A DNA stretch of 64,000 nt from Gemmataceae bacterium (lineage in GTDB: Bacteria; Planctomycetota; Planctomycetia; Gemmatales; Gemmataceae). Position numbers and translations under genes: made by a program. How positions within the stretch are numbered: the stretch's first letter is position 1; every line of letters starts with the position of its first letter. Positions 10,459 to 15,964 of the stretch are shown piece by piece. The notes under the pieces are model-generated. The model saw only the letters and a program-made list of their open reading frames with translations. It made no database searches and had not been told where the DNA came from. The stretch spans positions 1-64,000 of the forward strand of contig SIAQ01000003.1 of assembly GCA_009697105.1 (NCBI GenBank). Direction: 5' to 3'.

Positions 10459-10492
10459 GGACTTTGAAACAAGCAAACTTGGAACTTCTGAC
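10459..10492 (+). repeat. Direct repeat copy 1, upstream of tssK
   Basis: A segment of the type ttgaaac-x-agcaaacttggaacttctga occurs here and, in slightly longer form, at 13021-13060 upstream of tssM. Both copies are on the same strand and in the leader of a secretion gene. Confidence 0.6.
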
Positions 10493-10573: not shown

Positions 10574-12064
10574 ATGACTGTGCGTTCGGTTTCATCGGTA
10601 CTTTGGCAAGACGGTATGTTCATGTGGCCACACCACATGCAGCAGGAGGACCGTTGCCATGCCGAGCGCCTGCGCCTGAGTCATCGTTGGAACACCCACC
10701 ACAATTGGGGCCTTCGTGAACTGGAATGGGACGCCGACGCTTTCCAAAGCGGTCGGCTCGAAATCGTGCGTCTGCAAGCGCGGATGCGCGACGGTACCGT
10801 TGTCGACGTGCCAGCCGAGAGGCGCCTGCCAACGCTCGACTTGAAAGAGTTGATGATCGGCAAGGACCAGATTCGGCTCTACTTGGCCATCGCCATGGTG
10901 AACGCGACAGGCCCCAACGTGTTAGCCGGACGCGCATGCGACGGTGAGACGACCGACTCGAGCGAAGGAGCCGAGCCGATCACGACGCGCTATCGAGCCG
11001 AGGAGTTTGAGGTCGCCGATGAGAACGATGGCGCCGATCCGAAAACCTTGGCGTTTCGGACGCTGAACCTCAAGCTGCTCGTGGATGTTCAAGAACACAC
11101 CGGCTATGAGGTGCTGGAAATCGCCCAGTTCAAGAAAGCAAGCAGCGACGACGATTCGCCGCGATTCGACGAATTCTACATCCCTCCGGTCCTCGCTTGT
11201 GATGCCTGGAAGCCTCTCGCAGAACAGATTTTGCAGATGCTCTATCATCACCTGAGCAGCAGGATGGACAAGCTCGCGGCCAAGGCCCTGACGCGCGGCA
11301 TCACGTTCGAGACGCAGAACCCCGGCGACAATAAGCTCCTGGGTCGATTGGCGGTGTTGAACGAGTCGACGGCCGTCCTGAACACGCTGGCCTTTGCCAA
11401 GGGCGTTCATCCGTTCACGGCATATCTGGAGCTTTGTCGGCTGGTCGGGCAGTTGTCGATCTTCCGCGATAACTATCGCGTCCCCAAGCTGCCTCGCTAC
11501 GATCATGACGATTTGGGCACATGCTTCTTCCGTGTGCGTTGCTTCCTGGAAGAGGACAACGACACCGTCGCCTATGAGGAGCGCGACTTCATCGGCCAAG
11601 GCCTGCGCATGCAGGTAGCGATGGAACCCGTCTGGCTTGCGCCGGCCTGGCAACTCTTCGTCGGCGTGCGAAGCCCTCTGGCGGCGGCGCGCGTCATCGA
11701 TCTGTTGACCACGCCCGGCGAACTCGACATGAAGATTGGCAGCGGCAATCGCGTCGATCAGATGTTCATGCGCGGCATCGAAGGTCTGGAGTTCACGCAT
11801 GCGCCGCTGCCGCCGCGGGTTCTGCCGATGATGTCCGATTTGACCTACTTTCAGGTCAGCCGTGATTCACAGCAGGCCGAATGGGCCAGCGTGCAAGAGT
11901 CGCTGGTCCTGGCAATCCGCGTCAATGATACACGACTCGCCATCGGCCCCAGCAGGAACCTCGATGGCGAGTGTACCTTGTCCCTCAAGGCCAACGAAGG
12001 GCACGCCGCCACGACCATGCAGTTTTCGCTGTTCGTGGTTCCGGGCGAGGCGACGGCAAGCTGA
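10574..12064 (+). CDS. tssK: Type VI secretion baseplate protein TssK
   Basis: 496 residues. The N-terminus carries the TssK hallmark VLWQDGMFMWPHHMQQEDR (residues 8-26), and the conserved pattern continues through LREL, DLGTCFF and PLAAARVIDLL to the C-terminal domain, which in characterised systems contacts the membrane complex. TssK links the baseplate wedge (TssEFG) to the TssJLM membrane complex. The length is somewhat above the usual 440-450. ATG 10574 is the start that puts the hallmark near the N-terminus; the frame to 10334 reads through the palindrome. It is followed by tssL after 124 bp containing an inverted repeat. Confidence 0.9.
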   Translation: MTVRSVSSVLWQDGMFMWPHHMQQEDRCHAERLRLSHRWNTHHNWGLRELEWDADAFQSGRLEIVRLQARMRDGTVVDVPAERRLPTLDLKELMIGKDQIRLYLAIAMVNATGPNVLAGRACDGETTDSSEGAEPITTRYRAEEFEVADENDGADPKTLAFRTLNLKLLVDVQEHTGYEVLEIAQFKKASSDDDSPRFDEFYIPPVLACDAWKPLAEQILQMLYHHLSSRMDKLAAKALTRGITFETQNPGDNKLLGRLAVLNESTAVLNTLAFAKGVHPFTAYLELCRLVGQLSIFRDNYRVPKLPRYDHDDLGTCFFRVRCFLEEDNDTVAYEERDFIGQGLRMQVAMEPVWLAPAWQLFVGVRSPLAAARVIDLLTTPGELDMKIGSGNRVDQMFMRGIEGLEFTHAPLPPRVLPMMSDLTYFQVSRDSQQAEWASVQESLVLAIRVNDTRLAIGPSRNLDGECTLSLKANEGHAATTMQFSLFVVPGEATAS

Positions 12065-12067
12065 AGA

Positions 12068-12168
12068 GTCCCTGGTCCTTAGTTCGTGGAAAGAAGTCAT
12101 CGCGCATCGGCATTGTGATTCTTGATCCCTGACCTCTATCTATGGACCACGGACTAAGGACCAAGGAC
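12068..12168. repeat. Imperfect inverted repeat between tssK and tssL
   Basis: The segment 12068-12089 (core ggtccttagttcgtgg) and 12147-12168 (core ccacggactaaggacc) are inverted copies with a 57-nt spacer. It is of a different type from the GC-rich palindromes. Confidence 0.7.
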
Positions 12169-12188
12169 GGCGAAGCAGAGTTGTAACC

Positions 12189-12926
12189 ATGCGCAAAGAA
12201 ATCGCCGATTTCGTTTTTCCCGTAATTCGGGCGGCCGTCGAGTATAAGGAAGGGCTGCGCTCCAACGAAAGCGTTTGGCGCTCGCGCTTTGGCGAATGCC
12301 AAAAGAAGTTGCTTGCACTGCTCTTGGCTCCCGTTCCCGATTCGCTGCGGCCTGATGTCCTGGGCGACCCACGTTTGGTCGACGCCAGCGGCGGAACCAC
12401 CCAAACCGGCTTTCTCGGCATCCGCTATGCCCTGGCCTGTTGGCTTGATGATATCTTCATTCTTGATTCCATCTGGAATGAACAGTGGAACGCGTTCAAG
12501 ATGGAGTACACGCTTTACAAACTGAACAAACGCAACACTGAATTCTGGGAGCAGGCCATGCGTTCGCAGACGCGGCCGACGCGCGATGCGCTCGAAGTGT
12601 ATTATCTTTGTGTCATGCTCGGATTTCGCGGCAAGATGAGCGAAAAGCCGGTTGAACTCAATGCCTGGCGTGACGCCATCCAAACGCAGATCACCGAACC
12701 GGAAGCACGCATTTATGTCCCGCCGCAAGGATTGGTGGTCCCGCCGACGGTCGATAAGACATTGGCAGGTTCACAGAAATTACAGACTTGGCTGAAGCGA
12801 TTCACGATTGCCGGTGCCCTCACCCTCGCCGTCGTGGCGGCGCTTGCGGTATTCACCATCGCCCCGTGGGTGAGCCAAAAATCTCGCGATGGATCGGAAA
12901 CGCGCAAGCAATCGAAGTCGGATTAG
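12189..12926 (+). CDS. tssL: Type VI secretion inner-membrane protein TssL (DotU/IcmH)
   Basis: 245 residues. The cytoplasmic DotU domain shows RYALACWLDDIFI at 79-91 and YYLCVMLGFRGKM at 138-150, matching the conserved RYAL-x-DE and YLCL-x-GF-x-G patterns. A single C-terminal membrane helix lies at about 205-226 with a short tail and no peptidoglycan-binding extension. In known systems TssL pairs with TssM in the inner membrane and recruits TssK. Here it lies between tssK and tssM on the same strand, as expected. Confidence 0.9.
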   Translation: MRKEIADFVFPVIRAAVEYKEGLRSNESVWRSRFGECQKKLLALLLAPVPDSLRPDVLGDPRLVDASGGTTQTGFLGIRYALACWLDDIFILDSIWNEQWNAFKMEYTLYKLNKRNTEFWEQAMRSQTRPTRDALEVYYLCVMLGFRGKMSEKPVELNAWRDAIQTQITEPEARIYVPPQGLVVPPTVDKTLAGSQKLQTWLKRFTIAGALTLAVVAALAVFTIAPWVSQKSRDGSETRKQSKSD

Positions 12927-13020
12927 CCGACGATACAAGTCGGCAAGTTGCTGGTTGCAAGTTGATCCATGTGAAGTCATGAATTACCTGCTTGGCAATT
13001 AGTAATCGTTGCCGCCTGGC

Positions 13021-13060
13021 GACCTTGAAACCTGAAACATGCAAACTTGGGACTTCTGAA
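13021..13060 (+). repeat. Direct repeat copy 2, upstream of tssM
   Basis: Matches the element at 10459-10492 through ttgaaac, gcaaactt and gacttctga, with a short insertion. It ends about 25 nt before the tssM start and therefore overlaps its leader. Confidence 0.6.
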
Positions 13061-13085
13061 CAGGTCGATCCTCGGAGTTCGCGAT

Positions 13086-14735
13086 ATGCAACAATTCTTT
13101 GGTGCGTTCTGGGGACGGATTGCCAACGCCGTCAAGAACGTAACCACCCTCGTTGTTCGCGACACGACTGGCAAGGTCGTCGGCGGCGCGATGAGCCGGA
13201 TCAACAAGGTGATCTGGGCCATTGTGACATGGCTGATTCTGCTGACTCTCTTCGTCGCCTTTGAATACGCGCTTTATTACTTCAACGACGCCATCAATCT
13301 GGGCCGCTGGCTGCCGGCGTTCACGCCGCGGCTGAAACCTTTTTACGCGCCGTTGCTCGGTCTGATCGTCATTCTCGTTGGCGTGGTCCTCTATTTCTTT
13401 TTCGCGACCTGGGAAGGCGAACAAGACGAATCGCCATTCCCCGACATCGACGCAGCTTGGGAAACGGCGATGGAGGCCGTCGCCAAGGCGGGTATCGTGC
13501 CGCATCAGGTGTCGCTATTTCTCGTGCTCGGTCGGCCCGAATCGGCTGAGACTAACATGTTCGACGGCGCTGGCGTCAAATGGGTCGTCAAGCACTCGCC
13601 GCCGGATGCCAACGCCCCGATTCATGTCTACGCGGAAAAGGAAAGCTCGCCGAAGTCGGCGCATCCCGGCGCGATCTACGTCACATGCCGGGGCGCATCG
13701 GTGTTGGGCAAGCTGGCGGGTATCTTGGCCCGCGACGAGACCGTGCTGCCCGCCGCCATCGCCGCCGATGACGGTCTGGAACACGCCGACGCCACCGTCG
13801 GCGCATTCGACCGCGACGCACTTAAAGCCCGCGAAGTCGTGGCGGCGTCACTGGGACGCGAAGCCACCGTGCTCGAAAAACGCAAAGCCTACCGCGCCGA
13901 TCGAGGCAAACCGCTCGCCAACGATTTGCTGGCCGACAACGACGAAGTTACCCGCCTCAAAGCGAGGCTCGCGCATCTCTGCCGTTTGATCACGCGGGAA
14001 CGCCAATCCGAATGCGCCGCCAATGGCATCCTCCTGCTCATCCCCCTGGCCGGCACGGATACCTCCGGCGAGGCCCTGTTGACCGCCCAGGCCTGTCTCG
14101 AAGACCTGACGACGGCTCGAACCGAAATGAAGATCGACTGCCCCGTCGTCAGTCTACTGGTTGACCTGGAAGACCTGCCCGGCTTCAAGGAATTTCTCAG
14201 TCTGCAGCGCCTGAAGGAATTGTCCAGCCGTCGCGGTGGCAGCTTCCCGATGGCGACCCGCATGACCGCGGACGAGATTCGGCGACACCTTCGCACTTCG
14301 CTGTCGTGGATCTGCACGACCTACATGCAGGACAGCGTCTATTCGGTTTTTCAGACCGAGACCGAAGCGAACAAGGAAGTCTCGCCGCTCTTTTTGCGAA
14401 ACTCGCGCCTGACGCTGCTGTTGACGGAACTGAACGAACGAGCCGACGCAGTGTGCGACATCGTCACGTCCGCCATGATGCCCGAGAGAGAGTCGATGTT
14501 CCGGTATTCAGGATTCTACATCGCTGCGACCGGCGCCGTCGGCGTGCAAGGCTTCATCGCCGGCGTATTTCAAAAATTGGTCAAGGAACAGGCAAGCGTA
14601 ACCTGGACACAGTCCGCGCTGGATGCCGATGCCGAGGCATATCAATTGGCCGGTTCCTATGCGACGGCAACGTATCTTCTACTTCTGTTCATCGTCGTGA
14701 TGATTGCGGGAGCAGGGTATTACGTTTTCCGTTGA
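13086..14735 (+). CDS. tssM: Short TssM/IcmF-like protein lacking the periplasmic half
   Basis: 549 residues from ATG 13086 (GGAG upstream; the TTG at 13047 is not needed). Two membrane helices at about 41-66 and 85-107 are followed by a cytoplasmic domain of about 415 residues, then a last helix at about 525-548 and the stop. The cytoplasmic part follows the IcmF layout: SLFLVLGRPESAETN at 143-157 sits where other TssM proteins have a Walker A loop but lacks GKT, and NGILLLIPLAG and SLLVDLEDLPGFKEF match later conserved strands. Typical TssM proteins are about 1,100 residues or more and continue into a large periplasmic region after the third helix. Here that region is absent, so this is either a minimal variant or a related protein. 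Assignment rests on order and layout. Confidence 0.7.
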   Translation: MQQFFGAFWGRIANAVKNVTTLVVRDTTGKVVGGAMSRINKVIWAIVTWLILLTLFVAFEYALYYFNDAINLGRWLPAFTPRLKPFYAPLLGLIVILVGVVLYFFFATWEGEQDESPFPDIDAAWETAMEAVAKAGIVPHQVSLFLVLGRPESAETNMFDGAGVKWVVKHSPPDANAPIHVYAEKESSPKSAHPGAIYVTCRGASVLGKLAGILARDETVLPAAIAADDGLEHADATVGAFDRDALKAREVVAASLGREATVLEKRKAYRADRGKPLANDLLADNDEVTRLKARLAHLCRLITRERQSECAANGILLLIPLAGTDTSGEALLTAQACLEDLTTARTEMKIDCPVVSLLVDLEDLPGFKEFLSLQRLKELSSRRGGSFPMATRMTADEIRRHLRTSLSWICTTYMQDSVYSVFQTETEANKEVSPLFLRNSRLTLLLTELNERADAVCDIVTSAMMPERESMFRYSGFYIAATGAVGVQGFIAGVFQKLVKEQASVTWTQSALDADAEAYQLAGSYATATYLLLLFIVVMIAGAGYYVFR

Positions 14736-14843: not shown

Positions 14844-14904
14844 CAGAGCCGCGCACCGAGTAGGCGGCTTTTTTTTGGACTGTTTATTTCGTGCGCGGTT
14901 CTGA
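14844..14904. repeat. Intergenic palindrome, family G, enclosing a terminator
   Basis: cagagccgcgcac (14844-14856) and gtgcgcggttctg (14892-14904) are inverted copies with one mismatch, framing an AT-richer centre. The right arm supplies the last codons of the minus-strand hydrolase. The gcgcacgaaataa word is shared with 56899-56968. Confidence 0.75.
14847..14876 (+). terminator. Rho-independent terminator of the tss trio
   Basis: agccgc (14847-14852) pairs with gcggct (14864-14869), and eight T residues (14869-14876) follow. It lies 112 nt after the tssM stop. This is the only classical intrinsic terminator that I recognise clearly in the window. Confidence 0.7.
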
Positions 14905-15756
14905 CTCGACGGTAGCGGCTTCGTTACGAATTCGCCGCGCCCGCGCGGGATCGAACAGTGGGAAAATGTACTCGCGCAAATAGTTCGGGGCATAGGTGCC
15001 GAAGTGCCCGCCGTTGTGTCCCAAGGCGCGGTCTTTGGGCGTCCAGGGATGCTGGCTGAGTTTGTGCTGCGATTCGGGGTCGGCAGCGAAAAAGCGGTCG
15101 CCGAACCCGACACGGCCGGCACTTTTCGTCCGCAGCCGGTCGGACGTACCGATGAGCCGAGTCGCCAGGCCGAGATAGATATAGTCATGTGGGCTGTAGT
15201 GAACATGCACTCCGTGTGCGACTCGCCGAAGGGCTTCGCGCAGGTCGTATTTGTAGGACAATGACGGTGAGAGCAGGATCAGGTCGTCGATCGTTTCCGG
15301 CGGAAGCGTCTCGACTGCGGTCAACACCACAAGAGAGCCGGCGCTATGCCCGGCGAGGAAAGTGGGCCGATCGGGATTGGCGACGCGATGGGCGAGAACG
15401 ATCTCCGCCAAGCGTCGGCCTTGCATGCGGGCGTAGGCGTAATCAGTTTGATCTGCGTAGATGCGATTGTTGCCATGCGACCACTGAAAGGTAACGACAT
15501 CGATCGGATAGCCATCGCGATCGAGGACGTTGTGAAGCGTTTTCGAGGTGAACTGAAAACCGCCGGCGCCGTCGGCGACAAAGACGGTCGCGGGCTTGGC
15601 CTCGAATCGCATCGGCTTGGAGTCGATGACCTGCGGAAACGCTGCGGCGCAGCCCGTTAGCATCGGCGCGATGAAGAGGGCGGCCAACAAGCCATGCCAA
15701 CCAATCTGGCGGATGTGTCGGAAAATAGCAGATGCCTCCGTGAATCCGATTGACAC
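14884..15756 (-). CDS. Secreted or lipid-anchored alpha/beta hydrolase
   Basis: About 290 residues. The catalytic region shows FLAGHSAGSLVVL (nucleophile elbow GHSAG), and an earlier VVTFQWSHGNNR and a late HNGGHFGTYAP supply the expected serine-hydrolase layout. Near the N-terminus LLAALFIAPMLTGC looks like a lipobox. The start is uncertain: the open frame to 15849 reads through the palindrome at 15784-15847 and is unlikely, so I use GTG 15756, which has no strong ribosome-binding site. The C-terminal residues and stop come from the family G palindrome. Substrate unknown. Confidence 0.7.
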   Translation of the reverse strand: MSIGFTEASAIFRHIRQIGWHGLLAALFIAPMLTGCAAAFPQVIDSKPMRFEAKPATVFVADGAGGFQFTSKTLHNVLDRDGYPIDVVTFQWSHGNNRIYADQTDYAYARMQGRRLAEIVLAHRVANPDRPTFLAGHSAGSLVVLTAVETLPPETIDDLILLSPSLSYKYDLREALRRVAHGVHVHYSPHDYIYLGLATRLIGTSDRLRTKSAGRVGFGDRFFAADPESQHKLSQHPWTPKDRALGHNGGHFGTYAPNYLREYIFPLFDPARARRIRNEAATVESEPRTK

Positions 15757-15783
15757 TAGGTAAGTTGTAGCAGTTGCATTATT

Positions 15784-15847
15784 GATTTCTGCTTGCGGCT
15801 TAGCGTTCGAACAATACCCTGCGAACGCTAAACCGCAAGCGGAAATC
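15784..15847. repeat. Intergenic palindrome, family A (26-bp arms)
   Basis: Arms 15784-15809 and 15822-15847 are inverted copies with two mismatches and a 12-nt loop, with the cttgcggcttagcg core. It lies in a divergent gap, between two gene starts. Confidence 0.9.
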
Positions 15848-15964
15848 AAGAATGGCTACTCGTCTCATTCCGGCAAAATTGCAGATGCGATTGACGGGCA
15901 GGTTGGCGAACGGTTACACTATGCCCTTAGGATTACTGCGCATCGCATCGCAAAGGACCGCGTC

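Follow-up and report, generated by a model that had tools for sequence, protein, structure and literature searches.

The tube of the type VI secretion system (T6SS) is considered to leave the cell through a channel formed by TssM and TssJ, many TssM proteins carry a Walker A motif, and TssK is the main linker between the baseplate and the membrane complex. TssM of enteroaggregative Escherichia coli consists of 1,129 amino acids (aa), 744 residues of which form the TssJ-binding periplasmic part (PMC3213119), and the E. coli baseplate touches the membrane complex, with TssG contacting TssM residues 82-360 (PMC4604203). Boyer et al. noted the conservation of the J-K-L-M gene group and reported T6SS clusters in Rhodopirellula baltica (PMC2660368), and T6SS in planctomycetes has already been mentioned (PMC5394234, PMC6461901, PMC2660368). 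In the present study, we analysed a stretch of 64,000 nucleotides from a Gemmataceae bacterium (hereafter the window; contig SIAQ01000003.1 of assembly GCA_009697105.1), in which tssK, tssL, and a short tssM lie side by side. We propose, with a probability of roughly 0.75, that this trio arose by duplication and provides a K-L-M docking platform, anchored in the inner membrane only, to T6SS tails whose genes lie at other loci.

The trio resembles the TssJLM and TssK of the type i T6SS of enteroaggregative E. coli (PMC3213119, PMC4604203) in TssK, TssL, the three-helix cytoplasmic part of TssM, and the (J)-K-L-M order, but its TssM stops at helix 3 and TssJ is absent. Outside the window's class, the phylum has long TssM (loci L109-L118 and L166-L171) that share with the trio the adjacency of K, L, and M and a homologous cytoplasmic domain; unlike the window TssM, these long proteins have approximately 1,100-1,700 aa and Walker A, some occurring with the TssJ-binding periplasmic part (PF06761) and TssJ and others with neither. 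The Acinetobacter T6SS likewise lacks TssJ, for which lineage-specific envelope proteins compensate, but it retains the TssM periplasmic domain, linked there to outer-membrane crossing (PMC10564176), whereas the window TssM does not. In the type iii T6SS of Bacteroidota, with TssNQOPR, the canonical membrane complex is also replaced at the level of a phylum and the genes are often distributed over several loci; however, TssL and TssM are wholly absent there (PMC10781749), whereas the window system keeps both in shortened form. TssM without the C-terminal domain is also made as TssM1 variants in Citrobacter rodentium, but the cut is far downstream (residue 807) and full length is restored by poly-A slippage (PMC4256274), whereas the window tssM has neither a poly-A run nor a frame downstream.

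The first-pass annotation, made from the letters of the window, had read a TssK-TssL-TssM trio at this locus, and the open reading frames (ORFs) together with curated models confirmed it. All three genes are co-directional on the plus strand. The product of tssK (10574..12064; 496 aa) passed the equivalog model TIGR03353 of the T6SS baseplate adaptor (253 bits; cut-off 100) and matched PF05936 (E 5e-70) and solved TssK structures (E 1e-22). TssL of the DotU family (12189..12926; 245 aa) matched PF09850 with 71 bits (cut-off 27) and has a single C-terminal membrane helix (residues 207-225), as a TssL/DotU protein should; its score against TIGR03349 was below the cut-off, and the type IVB secretion IcmH/DotU equivalog NF038228 yielded only 18.9 bits (cut-off 50). 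The short TssM (13086..14735; 549 aa) falls in the IcmF family, with 35 bits against PF14331 (cut-off 25) at residues 293-483 (13962..14534), an IcmF-related N-terminal domain that also matched 17 of 17 relatives scanned. A sequence search of solved TssM structures with this protein gave no match, and Foldseek with its AlphaFold model (mean predicted local distance difference test [pLDDT] 69) returned only G-domain proteins such as FeoB (E 0.026, not significant).

Hydropathy scanning of the window TssM located three hydrophobic helices at residues 42-60 (13209..13265), 90-108 (13353..13409), and 530-548 (14673..14729), with one residue remaining after the third, so that the large periplasmic part that binds TssJ is missing, as the first-pass annotation had stated. 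Its reading of GRPESAETN at the P-loop site (residues 149-157; 13530..13556) as lacking GKT/S also held: the site aligns to GPPGSGKST of long TssM, with neither the Lys nor the Thr/Ser at the motif positions. A frameshift or slippage at the stop is implausible because no homopolymer lies there, the next gene, on the minus strand (14884-15849), ends approximately 150 bp downstream of the tssM stop, and the 98% identical orthologue in the sister species G066 stops at the same residue. With no downstream frame either, this candidate explanation was rejected, as was an assembly artefact, given the identical end in G066 and similar ends across the class.

The same architecture recurs among relatives. 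TssM was matched in 53 of 102 genomes of the order, none of them encoding a long one, and neither PF06761 nor TssJ (PF12790) exceeded the cut-off in any of the 102, the window's own genome included. Among 392 genomes sampled from several classes of the phylum, all TssM of the window's class were short (open frames of 542-611 aa), and those of other classes were mostly 1,000-1,700 aa, the few shorter ones being possible fragments. PF06761 was over the cut-off in 36 genomes of this sample and TssJ in 43, with none among the 16 genomes of the class with short TssM, which include single-contig assemblies 97-100% complete. TssM ended 0-16 residues past the last hydrophobic helix in 42 of 43 sequences of the order, the exception (G009) being possibly frameshifted, and 1-22 residues past it in 17 added sequences. 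Walker A was found at the P-loop site in none of 60 short TssM, two of which matched the motif elsewhere in the frame, whereas the long TssM of other classes have GxPxSGK[S/T] or a similar motif there. A comparison of the short and long TssM profiles (probability 97.7%, E 1.8e-12, window residues 51-480) set GRPESAETN on GPPGSGKST, and this alignment and the sequence ends thus indicate that the P-loop and the periplasmic part have both been lost in the class. On these comparisons, a short TssM without Walker A and without the periplasmic part is the rule in the order and class, in agreement with the link to planctomycetes made by the first-pass annotation. The absence of TssJ is not peculiar to the class, since PF06761 and TssJ matches are likewise missing from some genomes of other classes, in which TssM has approximately 1,500 aa. 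Our search of open-access papers found no literature on short TssM, which is no proof of novelty.

The window's genome is a draft of 5.4 Mb in 187 contigs, 92% complete. The trio had been described as isolated, and this stands for its surroundings: the 113-kb contig yielded no further tss gene, family hidden Markov models gave K, L, and M only in the window, and the flanking genes, named from the sequence reading, encode EVE-type and DHH-type proteins on one side and a hydrolase on the other. It does not stand for the genome, in which the recommended check for other tss genes revealed two further clusters. Contig C167 carries a TssA-TssC-Hcp-TssE-TssF-TssG-TssK-TssL-TssM operon, the TssM of which is short too (526 aa). 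Contig C116 encodes TssK, a 1,679-aa caspase/VWA protein (Casp), an 876-aa protein (p876), a 622-aa secreted protein (p622), ImpE, VgrG, DUF6931, a PAAR-like ORF (96 aa, unscanned), TssC, TssB, and TssA; neither TssL nor TssM lies close by. Together, C167 and C116 contain TssA, B, C, E, F, G, Hcp, and VgrG, that is, the sheath, tube, baseplate, and spike of a type i T6SS. Candidate TssH frames, for ClpV-like AAA+ proteins, were recognised by motif in loci of related genomes. Both contigs reach a contig end; contig C140 of the sister species has a matching end followed by C-Hcp-Hcp-E-F-G, likewise without K-L-M, and C116 probably continues in the same way, judging from the shared genes. The window and C167 trios are paralogous as a block (identity 57% for K, 56% for L, and 45% for M), and their TssK and TssM sequences fall, with those of congeners, into a single clade in the respective trees.

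Short TssM is closely associated with T6SS tails across the order: 46 genomes had both short TssM and tssF, seven TssM alone, three tssF alone, and 46 neither (Fisher P 8e-18, with related genomes not being independent), and the three tssF-only genomes are just 56-75% complete. K-L-M lies away from the tail cluster in many genomes of the order, including single-contig assemblies, in which the distance to the nearest tssF is 0.3 Mb (G010) or 2.8 Mb (G012). Tail clusters of G009, G010, G012, G052, G053, G094, G095, and G099 contain B, C, E, F, and G, some with A, and no K-L-M within the stretch read. The detached state of the window trio is thus ordinary. The same short TssM type also occurs inside complete T6SS operons, and K-L-M is contiguous in other classes of the phylum too. 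Furthermore, comparison of the trio with its G066 orthologues, the flanks of which are conserved, gave ratios of nonsynonymous to synonymous substitution (dN/dS) of 0.10 (K), 0.20 (L), and 0.20 (M), and the trio is under purifying selection. These patterns suggest that the trio belongs to a T6SS rather than standing alone.

Considering the gene identities, the class-wide architecture, the co-occurrence with tssF, the frequent separation of K-L-M from tail genes, the other T6SS clusters in the genome, and purifying selection, we infer physical docking and an inner-membrane-only topology and propose the following scenario. At the inner membrane, TssK would connect the baseplate (TssEFG-VgrG) with TssL and with the TssM cytoplasmic domain, and the sheath and tube from other loci would assemble on and fire from the trio platform; the tail served is perhaps that of the C116 cluster, which has its own TssK. 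The docking parts are kept in the trio and the channel part is gone. Because TssM stops after helix 3, the P-loop is degenerate, and no TssJ was found, the platform may reach across the inner membrane only. The TssM part reaching the outer membrane being lost, the envelope would have to be crossed by an undescribed route, in which other proteins, or the spike by itself, may see to the passage through the periplasm and outer membrane. Of the outer-membrane-independent platform suggested by the first-pass annotation, the platform without a TssJ-binding part is thereby retained, and independence from the outer membrane itself is a prediction from the sequence. Several points weigh against this scenario. 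In a draft genome, tail genes or the TssL and TssM partners of C116 could lie in unassembled sequence, a divergent TssJ or periplasmic protein could evade PF12790 and PF06761, and the evidence is comparative throughout. Moreover, we know of no experimental precedent for a T6SS without a trans-periplasmic channel, which implies a partner that escaped detection or else a machine of a different kind.

The block paralogy within the genus, away from tail genes, and the presence of a complete K-L-M elsewhere in the genome would also be expected if the trio were left over from a second T6SS operon whose tail genes had been lost, being now redundant or decaying; in the trees, its K and M cluster with those of the congener G065, which has them in a full operon, the support being weak to moderate (91/59 and 92/86). 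However, two species keep all three frames uninterrupted, with the low dN/dS and conserved flanks given above, and detached K-L-M is common in the order even where it is the sole K-L-M, making such a relic unlikely. The first-pass annotation had also raised a non-secretion purpose, namely that TssKLM anchors something besides a T6SS tail. The losses of the P-loop, the periplasmic part, and TssJ, the contig devoid of tail genes, and the TssM matches in seven genomes of the order without a tssF match would accord with this, but short TssM tracks tssF across the order and is present within complete operons, and TssK, the baseplate adaptor, is retained alongside it. The genome having sheath, tube, baseplate, VgrG, and PAAR-like genes as well, we regard repurposing as very improbable and did not retain that suggestion.

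A canonical trans-envelope channel would still form if a separate gene, diverged past recognition, supplied the periplasmic half of TssM. The cytoplasmic half is well conserved, and the candidates for such a split, Casp and p876, are neighbours of K-L-M or of further T6SS genes in numerous genomes; nevertheless, they resemble caspase/VWA proteins or nothing known rather than TssM. Furthermore, PF06761 exceeded the cut-off nowhere in the genome or the order, the genome-wide test covering PF06761 with PF06744 not searched, and a profile of the long-TssM periplasmic part had no match in the fetched T6SS-related loci outside long-TssM genomes. A split TssM is therefore quite unlikely. The outcomes that the first-pass annotation had named as refuting, a periplasmic part encoded elsewhere in the genome (searched as PF06761), a frameshift, or assignment to a family other than IcmF/TssM, did not arise, and its search for TssM of about 550 residues with the same end succeeded across the order and class.

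Returning to the docking platform, the envelope proteins encoded beside T6SS loci may be candidates for the lost TssM/TssJ part, this association being a lead only. Casp and p876 have, in most complete frames, one N-terminal helix with a positively charged N-flank and a large remaining part, which is presumably periplasmic; more than 10 loci have them next to K-L-M or another T6SS gene, and members of both families are caspase- or VWA-like or unmatched. p622 is secreted, with weak immunoglobulin (Ig)-like matches. Genes for a caspase/VWA protein (approximately 1,600-1,800 aa), another large protein with a single helix, and a secreted protein form a module that is repeatedly found next to TssK or K-L-M, both in the order and, with weaker scores, in the class (L011:9028-18873 and L127:2599-12149; also L052, L055, L076, L080, L081, L138, L151, and L154). 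Near T6SS genes at approximately 10 loci (L010:243-2871 and L012:2472-5267; also L051, L056, L071, L073, L085, L133, and L163), a barrel-like protein is paired with a HEAT-repeat protein, both with signal peptides. The C-terminal part of the barrel-like protein matched PF13557 barely over the cut-off in one member and under it in another, most members have a C-terminal RxRF/Y, and the AlphaFold model has a pLDDT of 31, the barrel call relying on sequence features alone; this pair is a possible outer-envelope partner of the T6SS. More tentatively, the whole class may run its T6SS from inner-membrane-only TssKLM, the caspase-like single-helix, secreted Ig-like, and barrel-like/HEAT proteins having replaced TssJ and the TssM periplasmic domain, and spare K-L-M serving as interchangeable docks for remote tails, a wider picture that we consider possible but doubtful.

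A class with sheath, tube, baseplate, TssK, and TssL but no TssM channel or TssJ makes the need for the channel and its substitutes directly testable. Annotation that demands tssJ, full-length tssM, or a single contiguous cluster undercounts planctomycete T6SS.

Several further observations concern TssM in other genomes. At L166-L171, from other classes, TssM-like proteins of approximately 1,500-1,700 aa with Walker A adjoin TssK and TssL in genomes that match neither PF06761 nor PF12790, and may represent a third TssM type. In G044, a single TssL gene and a single TssK gene are accompanied by two short TssM genes in tandem (L080:7323-10741). A short TssM beside TssG, TssF, and TssE (L097:9869-11659) lies on a contig filed as an alphaproteobacterial metagenome-assembled genome, which may reflect either misbinned planctomycete DNA or transfer.

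Within the window locus, an Rfam scan gave no match. The silent-site divergence (dS) between tssK and its G066 orthologue (L070) is 0.27, far above that of tssL and tssM (0.04), with identical blocks between, a contrast that suggests recombination. A 26-bp word upstream of tssK (10466-10491) recurs with two mismatches upstream of tssM (13034-13059) and is kept in the G066 orthologue; it had no other occurrence in the stretches of the genome read, resembles heptamer-type repeats, and has a possible regulatory role. Between tssK and tssL lies a 22-nt inverted repeat (12068-12089 and 12147-12168; 91% complementary, spacing 57 nt), whose heptamer-like component words are present in the C116 cluster too.
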